This document shows positions 24,377-46,218 of a stretch of 64,000 bases of DNA, piece after piece (the first letter of the stretch is position 1; each line of letters opens with the position of its first letter). A program made the translations under genes and the position numbers. The stretch is from Lachnospiraceae bacterium. Lineage in GTDB: Bacteria; Bacillota; Clostridia; Lachnospirales; Lachnospiraceae. The notes under the pieces were generated by a model. The model worked only from the letters and a program-made list of their open reading frames with translations, was not told the DNA's origin and made no database searches. The stretch spans positions 1-64,000 of the forward strand of contig JAETTM010000010.1 in assembly GCA_021769135.1 (NCBI GenBank), written 5' to 3'.

Positions 24377-25096
24377 TTATGCAAAGGAAGAAATATCTGT
24401 AATGCAGACGGAATTTTCATGCAGCCAAAGGAAGCTGGCGGGGCATTCGGGGGAAACTGTCTGGCTTTGCAGCCTGGCATAGGCTTCCTGCTTATCGGCA
24501 CCGGTAGCCAGCAAGATAATCTGGCGGGAATCCAGCAGGTCTTTGATGCCTAACGTATATCCGGCGGAAACAGATTCCCCGTTTTCGGAAAGCATGGCAT
24601 GGGTTTTCGTCTTGGCGTGCAGGGCAGCTTGATGGGCGAAAGGATATGGTTCTTTGCCCGGCTCGTTCAGGCCCAGATGCCCGTTCTTTCCAAGGCCCAG
24701 TATACAGCAGTCGATACCGCCGGCTTCATGGAGCAGCCGGGAAACTCTTGCACATTCCGCATCGGAATCTTTTGCTAACGGATCGAAAGAAATATAACGT
24801 GGGGAATCTGCCGGAATTCCTAAAGGGGCCAGAAGGTGGGCCGCAATATAGTGTTCGCAGGTGGCCGCATTGTCTTTAGGGAGGCCGCACCATTCGTCTA
24901 GCTTGATGATTCGCATCCGGCTTATATCAATGTTTTCCGATTTTATCCTTTCTGCAAAAAGGCGGTAAGCGCCTGTGGGCGATGAGCCTGTGGCGATGCA
25001 GAACAAGGCATCCGGCTTTCTGAGCAGGGCCTCTATCATCATATCGCTTGCCAAGAGGCTCATTTCTTTGTAATTTTCCGATTTGACTATTTTCAT
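24377..25096 (-). CDS. Glucosamine-/galactosamine-6-phosphate deaminase
   Basis: This encodes 239 residues. GAGGAA six bases upstream supports the ATG at 25096 over the ATG four codons earlier. The NagB fold is clear: FCIATGSSPTGAYRLF binds phosphate, IIKLDEWCGLP carries the catalytic Asp region, and CCILGLGKNGHLGLNEPG has the Asp-His-Glu set. The segment PRYISFDPLAKDSDAECARV is closer to galactosamine-6-phosphate isomerase (AgaI) than to classical NagB. It removes ammonia from hexosamine-6-phosphate. It diverges from a ROK regulator, a PfkB kinase and a GH4 glycosidase, together suggesting use of an amino-sugar glycoside. Its leader carries the hairpin shared with the antiporter gene. Confidence 0.88.
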   Translation of the reverse strand: MKIVKSENYKEMSLLASDMMIEALLRKPDALFCIATGSSPTGAYRLFAERIKSENIDISRMRIIKLDEWCGLPKDNAATCEHYIAAHLLAPLGIPADSPRYISFDPLAKDSDAECARVSRLLHEAGGIDCCILGLGKNGHLGLNEPGKEPYPFAHQAALHAKTKTHAMLSENGESVSAGYTLGIKDLLDSRQIILLATGADKQEAYARLQSQTVSPECPASFLWLHENSVCITDISSFA

Positions 25097-25165
25097 ATAA
25101 TTCCTCATTTCTGCACAGCTTTTGTGTTGGATGGAGTCTGCGGATGCCGTGCGGACACAAACTCC
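25097..25165 (-). ncRNA. Structured 5' leader (candidate pseudoknot riboregulator), copy 1
   Basis: On the minus strand, GGAGTTTGTG (25165-25156) pairs with CGCAGACTCC (25142-25133) using two G-U pairs. They enclose a 13-base loop TCCGCACGGCATC. The loop bases TCCGCACGGC can pair at 9 of 10 positions with GCTGTGCAGA (25119-25110), only two bases upstream of the ATGAGG Shine-Dalgarno region. The same arrangement precedes the antiporter gene at 46088-46173. Formation of the pseudoknot could control access to the start of the deaminase gene. Confidence 0.6.
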
Positions 25166-25203
25166 GGACTGAAAAATTTAGTTTTCAATCTCTTTTCTTC
25201 CTT

Positions 25204-44883: not shown

Positions 44884-44920
44884 GGCAGCGATTTCAGGAC
44901 TGCGCTGCCATTTCCTTTTT
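44884..44920. terminator. Weak terminator between convergent genes
   Basis: GGCAGCG and CGCTGCC pair exactly around a 12-base loop, followed on the plus strand by ATTTCCTTTTT. It overlaps the last codons of the antiporter gene. Confidence 0.45.
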
Positions 44921-46087
44921 CTCATCCTTCGTATAAAGCATTTTTAAGACAATCGGCGTCAATATGGAAGATACCAGGATTAGCAAAATAACCGCCGTAA
45001 AATAATCTGCGGACAAAAGCCCGGCCGCAAGCCCTTTCTGCGCCACGATAAGGGCCACTTCCCCCCGCGTCATCATCCCTACGCCGATTTTCAAGGAATC
45101 CGCCGCACTGTACTTGCATAATTTGCTGGTGAGGCCGCAGCCAAGAACTTTGGCGAACAGGGCCACAATAACAAAGCAAATGGAGAATGCAATCAGCTTG
45201 CCGTTCATGCTGTCAAAGGAAGTCTTCAAACCGATGCTGGCAAAGAAAACGGGGCCGAAAAACATATAGGAGCTCACATCCACTTTTCTTTCTATGTATT
45301 CGTTATCGCTTAAATTGCATAACACAACGCCAGCCACATAAGCGCCGGTGATATCGGCAATGCCAAAATACCTTTCGGCGATATAGGACAGGGCGAAACA
45401 AAATGCCACGCCGACGATAGGAATCCGCCTTGTATGCGGGTAACGTTTATCCAGGGTGAGGAACATTTTATAAACAAAATAGCCGCCCACAATAGCTACT
45501 ACAAAGAAAGCGATGGTCTTCACAACAACCATTCCGGGATTCGAATCCGGGTTTTTAAACCCGATGACAAAAGTAAGGACAACAATGCCGATTACGTCAT
45601 CGATAATAGCGGCGCTGACAATAGCTGTGCCTACCTTGCTCTTGATTTTTCCCAATTCCTGCAAAGAAGCTACCGTAATGCTCACGCTGGTTGCCGTCAT
45701 AATCGTTCCCATAAATACTGCCTTATAAAAATTCTCGCTTCCCCATGGAGCCATGCCGTAAAAGCCCATATAGAGGAGGGCGCCGCATACCAATGGAACA
45801 AAAACGCCCGCACAGGCGATTAGGAAGGCCACCGGCCCTGTTTTAATCAGTTCCTTCAAATCGGATTCCAGCCCTACGGAGAACATTAATATGATTACGC
45901 CCACTTCCGCCATTTCCGTAATAAATTCCGTCTGGGTAATCCATCCCAATACGCAGGGCCCTACGAGAAGCCCGGCAATAATCTGCCCAACCACCTGGGG
46001 GGCTTTGAACTTCCTGGCAAGGATGCCAAGACATTTCGCAAAGAGCAGTATGATAGCCAAATCCCTTAGTACTTCATAAGATTCCAT
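44894..46087 (-). CDS. Monovalent cation:proton antiporter, CPA2 family
   Basis: This encodes 397 residues from the ATG at 46087, with GAGGAAA upstream; the ATG four codons earlier overlaps that site and is rejected. About 12-13 membrane helices are predicted. The N terminus (KFKAPQVVGQIIAGLLVGP), VGVIILMFSVGLESDL and the paired-Asp motif SAAIIDDVIGIVVL are NapA/KefB-type CPA2 features; two adjacent Asp residues suggest electrogenic Na+/H+ exchange. There is no TrkA-N domain. The mRNA leader carries the same hairpin as the deaminase gene at 24.4 kb. Confidence 0.9.
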   Translation of the reverse strand: MESYEVLRDLAIILLFAKCLGILARKFKAPQVVGQIIAGLLVGPCVLGWITQTEFITEMAEVGVIILMFSVGLESDLKELIKTGPVAFLIACAGVFVPLVCGALLYMGFYGMAPWGSENFYKAVFMGTIMTATSVSITVASLQELGKIKSKVGTAIVSAAIIDDVIGIVVLTFVIGFKNPDSNPGMVVVKTIAFFVVAIVGGYFVYKMFLTLDKRYPHTRRIPIVGVAFCFALSYIAERYFGIADITGAYVAGVVLCNLSDNEYIERKVDVSSYMFFGPVFFASIGLKTSFDSMNGKLIAFSICFVIVALFAKVLGCGLTSKLCKYSAADSLKIGVGMMTRGEVALIVAQKGLAAGLLSADYFTAVILLILVSSILTPIVLKMLYTKDEKKEMAAQS

Positions 46088-46173
46088 AATTTTCCTCATT
46101 TCTGCGCTGCTTTTTATCTATGCTGATTCCTGCGTATCATAAGTTTGTGGATGCGGCGCAGACACAAACTTAT
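46088..46173 (-). ncRNA. Structured 5' leader (candidate pseudoknot riboregulator), copy 2
   Basis: On the minus strand ATAAGTTTGTG (46173-46163) pairs perfectly with CACAAACTTAT (46149-46139) around the 13-base loop TCTGCGCCGCATC. The loop bases TCTGCGCCGC can pair at 9 of 10 positions with GCAGCGCAGA (46110-46101), three bases before the GAGG Shine-Dalgarno region. Compared with the copy before the deaminase gene, two stem pairs change compensatorily (T-A to G-C, A-T to G-C) and one pseudoknot pair changes A-U to G-C. The predicted transcript starts only about ten bases before the hairpin. Confidence 0.65.
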
Positions 46174-46189
46174 TCATATTCCACAAATA

Positions 46190-46218
46190 GTTATAGTCGC
46201 AAAATAAATATATGTCAA
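46190..46218 (-). promoter_or_regulatory. Promoter of the antiporter gene
   Basis: Minus strand TTGACA (46218-46213), 17-base spacer, TATAAC (46195-46190). Confidence 0.78.

Follow-up and report, generated by a model that had tools for sequence, protein, structure and literature searches.

The usual view of cis-acting RNA regulators is that they are passed on with their gene or pathway. In the H-type riboswitches SAM-II, SAM-V and preQ1 a loop strand pairs at or next to the Shine-Dalgarno (SD) sequence, and the third loop is A-rich. Ribosomal-protein leader pseudoknots, for example that of S15, form a structure at the ribosome-binding site that acts on initiation, and each of them controls one operon. 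The pnuC motif RNA is listed with pnuC genes and, in the part of the source that deals with this motif, is given a possible pseudoknot with the ribosome-binding site of the adjacent coding region (PMC8632094). A second group of relevant systems consists of the pneumococcal repeats BOX, RUP and SPRITE. According to the sections of the source devoted to them, these elements have terminal inverted repeats, BOX and RUP also show target duplications, and an excess lies between convergent genes (PMC3049150). The module that we describe here departs from the usual view of cis-acting regulators: it has multiplied before unrelated genes.

Our analysis started from two leaders in the window, that is, the whole stretch of 64,000 nucleotides at the start of contig JAETTM010000010.1 of a Lachnospiraceae bacterium. 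The first leader (46,085-46,218, minus strand, like every part of both leaders) precedes a gene for a cation:proton antiporter (44894..46087; Na_H_Exchanger, PF00999, by Pfam), which is 397 aa long when read from the ATG at 46085-46087. The hairpin P1 consists of a 5' strand ATAAGTTTGTG (46163..46173) and a 3' strand CACAAACTTAT (46139..46149) that form 11 of 11 pairs around a 13-nt loop TCTGCGCCGCATC (46150..46162). Bases 1-10 of the loop are the 5' strand of a second helix, P2, and the last three (ATC) are unpaired and conserved in our alignment A1. A variable linker with an A-rich end follows (46111..46138; lengths and A-rich ends were compared in 154 copies), and then the 3' strand of P2, GCAGCGCAGA (46101..46110). 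This strand forms 9 of 10 pairs with loop positions 1-10 and is supported by covariation in the family; the only mismatch, a C.A at loop position 8, is also the most variable pair of the family. The extended SD AGAAATGAGG (46094..46103) begins within the P2 3' strand, which it overlaps with its AGA, and the start codon lies 6 nt past it. The 11-bp stem and the 9 of 10 loop pairs claimed by the original prediction can thus be read directly from the DNA. The same holds for the consensus promoter that it had named (46190..46218; TTGACA at 46218-46213, 17 nt, TATAAC at 46195-46190), a promoter-like site that would start the transcript about ten bases before P1. The orthologues in two genomes of the genus (G001 and G002) have the same promoter, and both are without the element.

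The second leader (24,377-25,190 including its gene) precedes a gene for a Glucosamine_iso family protein (24377..25096; PF01182 by Pfam; 239 aa; ATG at 25094-25096). Its outermost part is an upstream hairpin H0, GATTGAAAAC-TAAA-TTTTTCAGTC (25167..25190; seen in the sequence and in a script listing). It is followed by the P1 5' strand GGAGTTTGTG (25156..25165), the 13-nt loop TCCGCACGGCATC (25143..25155), the P1 3' strand CGCAGACTCC (25133..25142), the P2 3' strand GCTGTGCAGA (25110..25119) and the SD AGAAATGAGG (25103..25112). Hence, a hairpin, a 13-nt loop and loop pairing beside the SD are present at both sites in the window where they had been predicted, the two genes are unrelated, and the differences between the two stems are compensatory, as had been claimed. 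In the 15 other genomes of the genus, the Glucosamine_iso gene has no close orthologues, just relatives of 29-32% identity in 13 of them. In both leaders the SD (46094-46103 and 25103-25112) itself holds an ATG, which at the 6-nt spacer shares its frame with the probable true start. As a consequence, the list of open reading frames begins both genes four codons early (401 and 243 aa). Gene callers may be misled in the same way, since the ATG of the SD is in frame whenever the spacer is 6 nt.

We confirmed that both leaders are copies of a large family of dispersed RNA modules of about 65-115 nt. Some 70 to 100 unrelated genes in the host genome are preceded by such a module. A strict pattern of loop end, linker, P2 strand and SD matched 13 times in the host genome and not once in a reversed control. 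The sequence GCAGAAATGAGG, with at most one mismatch, matched 188 times compared to 12 times in the control. Outside the window, a start codon with an open reading frame of at least 60 aa comes after 73 of 77 distinct sites with exact GCAGAAATGAGG; many of these sites have no hairpin and contain the 3' part of the module only. A first structural search, which permitted loops of 12-14 nt, found 39 hairpin copies with loops of 13 nt throughout. From 32 of these 39 copies we built a covariance model that contains P1 as its sole helix and does not include P2. This model matches the host genome at least 143 times at E≤10, at least 103 times at E≤0.01 and at least 71 times below 1e-6, counts that rest on 150 scored out of 3183 candidates. 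Many of the weaker matches keep, by eye, little beyond the 3' end. In the window, the first copy (46172-46094) scores 75.1 bits (E=5.8e-17) and the second (25165-25103) 70.7 bits (E=7.2e-16), strong scores that are expected, since the model was made from host-genome copies and both are among its 32 training rows. At E≤5 the window has five more matches, of which one is the complement of the first copy (E=0.002) and four are at chance level (E 0.1 to 4.1).

Within the genus, 11 of 16 genomes (the host included) have a model match; six of them have at least 40 matches, and five genomes have none. Outside the genus, 15 of 100 genomes match the model with 1-12 copies each. A pattern scan of named genomes gave at least 80 records; of the 80 listed, all but four are labelled Lachnospiraceae or other Clostridia and similar bacteria; the matches listed include Parablautia, Acetatifactor muris, the strains 10-1, 28-4, 526-35 and C-53 and many MAGs. 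The four unrelated Proteobacteria among the pattern matches listed have no model match, and hence their pattern matches are due to chance. A family-wide pattern scan found a match in 158 of 397 genomes, mostly single ones that look chance-like by eye. Among viral contigs, the only pattern match (L302:7799-7861) lies before an apparent cation ATPase gene, perhaps in host DNA. A comparison with Rfam 15, which had been proposed as a check, gave no match at gathering scores in the window or in eight loci that include both window copies, only an unrelated tRNA in nine copy-bearing loci and, in a permissive search around the first copy, just irrelevant weak matches. Searches of open-access PMC papers showed no description of the family, which apparently is unreported. 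The 3' end of 16S rRNA, sought in the host assembly, gave no match.

The support for the structure is comparative, not energetic. In nested folding of the leader alone, which does not allow pseudoknots, the first copy favours a different structure, and its stability is unremarkable (z=-0.51); the second copy reaches z=-2.29. Comparison of the copies, in contrast, shows that P1 and P2 are preserved by compensatory change. In the training set of 32, P1 is paired in 100% and P2 in 94.7% of cells, with double changes in 7 of 10 and 4 of 10 pairs, respectively. Two larger alignments were fitted to P1 and not to P2: A2, with 84 matches from the host genome (82 distinct), and A3, with 105 matches from 94 other loci (92 distinct), among them 68 of the 80 named-genome records listed. 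In A3, 96.8% of P1 cells and 95.6% of P2 cells are paired, and double changes number 127 compared to 40.9 in shuffles. In A2, 92.6% of cells are paired overall, with 113 double changes compared to 27.6. None of 500 shuffles was as high in either case. If the partners are slid by 1-3 columns, pairing falls from 92.6% (A2) and 96.2% (A3) to 25-46%. A single P2 pair illustrates the range of states: UA 40, GC 34, AU 7, CG 2, GU 2 and other 3. The complete set of seven core P2 pairs is present in 136 of 154 copies, which were extracted with a loop pattern that fixes some loop letters and requires at least eight P1 pairs; in 1000 partner swaps the mean was 58 and the maximum 75. Whole genomes also differ in their main pair: the loop core is GCGCTGC in 19 of 19 printed rows of G009, with GCAGCGC in most rows where the partner is printed, and the host genome mainly has GCGCGGC with GCCGCGC.

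Where P2 runs into the SD, pairing is looser than in the core of P2. At loop position 3, 21 of 89 cells of A3 and 34 of 75 cells of A2 lack a pair, and at loop position 1 the numbers are 5 of 87 (A3) and 15 of 76 (A2). The pseudoknot that engages the SD region nevertheless appears conserved across the aligned copies: the core of P2 adjoins the SD, and the overlap with the AGA of the SD is less strict. The H-type plan with pairing beside the SD, on which the original prediction was built, hence gains support from both helices over the whole family. The unpaired ATC and the A-rich end of the linker are conserved as well. The full module reads, in order, H0, the P1 hairpin with its 13-nt loop, the variable linker, the P2 strand and the module's own SD, past which the start codon lies. 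In H0, too, pairing is kept with different letters (for example GAGTGAAAGATTT/AAATCTTTCACTC, GATTGAAAATT/AATTTTCAATC and GGTTGAAAGAAT/ATTCTTTCAACC). Two copies (L351 and L402) have variant loops of about 16 nt that seemingly still offer seven bases for P2.

One could argue that these pairings are DNA-level hairpins of a non-autonomous transposon and that RNA structure is irrelevant. Dispersal and hairpins would fit such an element. However, G.U cells exceed A.C cells in both helices, 53 to 4 in P1 and 27 to 4 in P2 of A3, and 57 to 9 and 32 to 14 (the weakest contrast) in A2, with the P1 end pair and loop positions 1-3 omitted. This excess points to selection on the sense strand, that is, on RNA. 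Furthermore, orientation and start-codon spacing are fixed, and the partners are pseudoknotted instead of being inverted ends, which makes a DNA-level explanation very unlikely. The shuffles, the swaps and the G.U test all ignore relatedness, and many copies are recent duplicates.

For 77 of 84 matches in the host genome (79 fetched loci), an open reading frame of at least 50 aa begins 3-9 nt past the SD, 52 times at exactly 6 nt. Of the seven exceptions, two are the upstream copies in tandem pairs (L102 and L343), and five have a short reading frame at a normal spacer (L107 twice, L355, L359 and L144); most of these five are weak matches. Over all loci, 138 of the 154 pattern-extracted copies are likewise placed before the start of a reading frame. 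These counts show that the modules are located at start codons. In 43 of 75 scored copies a reading frame of at least 100 aa on the same strand ends within 200 nt upstream, and only 7 of 75 scored copies have TTTT between loop and SD. Since the site often appears to be internal to an operon and there is no obvious terminator, action at the level of translation is most likely. The covariance-model check of the original prediction thus gave further copies upstream of genes, with covariation present and not lost. A mobile repeat lying at random intergenic places, which the same prediction had considered as a contrary outcome, describes the family in part: it behaves like a dispersing repeat, and it is sited at ribosome-binding sites, not randomly.

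Which genes follow the module? A Pfam scan of 70 of the 77 downstream proteins found sugar ABC and PTS transporters, glycoside hydrolases, acetate kinase, phosphofructokinase, malic enzyme, UDP-glucose enzymes, the tRNA synthetases for His, Thr and Pro, SAM synthetase, CTP synthase, uracil and nicotinate phosphoribosyltransferases, a sigma factor, RelB and MazE antitoxins, a coat protein, MATE, TatD and others. None of the 70 matches a transposase. Sugar metabolism is common among them; by eye, no single pathway emerges, and neither does the common pathway or ligand that is expected downstream of a translational H-type riboswitch. This bears on the suggestion that the antiporter and the sugar-phosphate gene share a metabolite or ion riboswitch. 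The loop-to-SD plan of an H-type pseudoknot is what such a riboswitch would look like. However, the targets are too many and too unrelated, Rfam contains no matching riboswitch, and the antiporter has 11 relatives in 10 other genomes of the genus, none of which has a model match. The frequent position close behind another gene on the same strand does not agree with a shared signal either. We have therefore dropped the two-gene ion or sugar signal on the basis of the gene list and the element-free antiporter leaders, and consider a riboswitch highly improbable.

A broader form of co-regulation is conceivable. The copies could form a regulon under a single trans-acting factor, either an RNA-binding protein or one associated with the ribosome, and could have multiplied because co-regulation was favoured. 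The conserved unpaired bases, a P1 sequence conserved beyond the needs of pairing, and the many central-metabolism and sugar-uptake genes among the targets are in line with this idea. It is unlikely all the same: antitoxin, spore-coat and other genes are mixed in, and in close relatives the target genes are often without the element.

We consider it probable, judging from sequence comparison, that the module is a dispersing (mobile or gene-converted) leader, equipped with an SD of its own next to an H-type pseudoknot, and that it acts on the initiation of translation. A module would be copied into a leader, in its H0 form just 3' of an existing SD, and its own SD, from which the start codon is usually 6 nt away, would become the initiation site of the gene. 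In the mRNA, P1 and P2 would form the pseudoknot. P2 would abut and partly take up the extended SD and crowd the landing site of the 30S subunit, so that initiation would depend on the opening of P2. The result would be a gated or insulated ribosome-binding site. Many genes may tolerate the module because a working SD is restored.

Among H0 copies with enough flank, 59 of 97 have an SD core within 18 nt before H0, compared to 7 and 9 in the next two 18-nt bins; the other 38 have no SD core where expected. Among copies without H0, an SD core precedes P1 in 11 of 49 (4 and 6 in the next two bins). The criterion for H0 is permissive and includes chance hairpins, one of them at the window promoter. 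These counts, together with the differences between relatives given below, strongly indicate that the module spreads by copying into leaders and that its H0 form inserts immediately 3' of an SD already in place; the gene would then be started from the module's SD. SD cores shortly before the GTG or TTG at the start of H0 could also be taken to open a small reading frame that controls the pseudoknot through a leader peptide. Yet the common H0 types read, by eye, into the module in different frames with different stops, so that there is no conserved peptide, and copies without H0 exist. We consider leader-peptide coupling highly improbable.

Copies in stretches of G009 and G015, picked as good matches, are near-identical by eye over about 90-115 nt, most of them with H0. 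Many near-identical dispersed copies together with empty sites in relatives, both of which are found here, are what characterizes small interspersed repeats. Module presence varies gene by gene between close relatives. Among 17 ackA loci from relatives in the genus, G002 alone shows a model match, and a plain SD is present in the close orthologues of G001, G003, G012 and G015. The host ackA carries two nested elements, the younger directly between the SD of the older and the ATG. For the antiporter, the orthologues in G001 and G002 (92-93% protein identity) carry AGGGAGG in an ordinary leader. At the host antiporter gene the module has taken the place of the native leader and its SD and does not just interrupt it. 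When 18 gene starts were queried, 21 orthologous leaders came up in G001 and G002: six with a full match (L395, L398, L399, L402, L405 and L407), four with a partial or eroded one (L394, L401, L403 and L414) and eleven with none (L408 is ambiguous by eye, and the match at L397 belongs to another gene). A sugar permease (L036) shows the difference most cleanly: G001 has GAGAGGGGGCAGAGGA-ATG, and in the host this purine run and the ATG are separated by the full unit. Part of the turnover could be explained by losses besides gains.

A selfish or neutral repeat is the main rival explanation. The fold would then serve mobility or keep the new SD usable, without carrying regulatory information, and P1 and P2 would be kept since copies that spoil a ribosome-binding site get removed. 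Near-identical copies before unrelated genes, the differences between close relatives, the lack of a gene theme and the presence of eroded and 3'-only remnants all agree with it. Against it stand the copies at orthologous places, in which pairing outlasts divergence beyond the obvious need of an insulator. The G002 leader L177 has GCGCCGC with GCGGTGC where its host counterpart L002 has GCGCGGC with GCCGCGC, and pairing is likewise kept in diverged copies at L017 and L031; in the shared case L016/L405 one of seven core pairs is lost. The conservation of the unpaired ATC and of the A-rich linker end is also not accounted for. We regard a purely selfish or neutral repeat as a serious but doubtful alternative. 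A constant target-site duplication was not seen by eye in the G009 and G015 copies, the orthologous leaders or the 3'-only leaders, and the latter two sets show, by eye, no constant terminal inverted repeats.

Several other leaders deserve mention. Nested or tandem copies occur at L102 and L059 in the host genome and at L308 in G015, with the younger copy behind the SD of the older or of a remnant. At L074, a 5'-truncated copy that extends from the linker hairpin to the SD lies directly behind CAGGAG before a gene start, which might hint at copying. We rejected 5' truncation as a sign of reverse transcription: L074 is suggestive, but most 3'-only leaders have, by eye, no SD at the break. Genes in three genomes (L026, L410 and L379) are preceded by another recurring leader piece, in which GAAAGGAG comes after AAAGTC-loop-GACTTT, and at L026 the pseudoknot element is located behind the SD of this piece. 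A T-box before thrS in G001, possible by eye, was not retained, as Rfam gave no match at the gathering score.

Returning to the dispersing leader, one could go further and propose that the niche of this mobile element is the gap between SD and start codon. The replacement SD and the pseudoknot would keep the insert harmless or useful, copies would nest, and some 70-100 genes per genome in one lineage would come to share a common translation gate. We offer this extension tentatively and give it slightly less than an even chance. If the module does gate initiation, then one mobile RNA has rewired the translation of a good part of a genome. Gating of initiation is testable in cultured gut Lachnospiraceae.

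How does the module compare to the known systems? It shares with SAM-II, SAM-V and preQ1 a loop strand that pairs at or beside the SD, and an A-rich third loop. Unlike these riboswitches, it has no Rfam match and no gene theme, its copies disperse, and its linker is long and variable. S15-type leaders are alike in having a structure at the ribosome-binding site, whereas the module precedes many unrelated genes. A possible pseudoknot with the ribosome-binding site is common to the module and the pnuC motif RNA as described in the relevant part of its source (PMC8632094); the module differs in lacking a gene theme and an Rfam match. Like BOX, RUP and SPRITE, as far as the sections of the source on these repeats describe them, the module is short and structured, has many copies per species group and can lie in transcribed leaders (PMC3049150). 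Compared to those descriptions, it is bound to start codons, occurs in one orientation, supplies an SD and contains a covarying pseudoknot. Hence, the family resembles pseudoknotted ribosome-binding-site leaders in its plan and small interspersed repeats in its spread, without having all the defining features of either.
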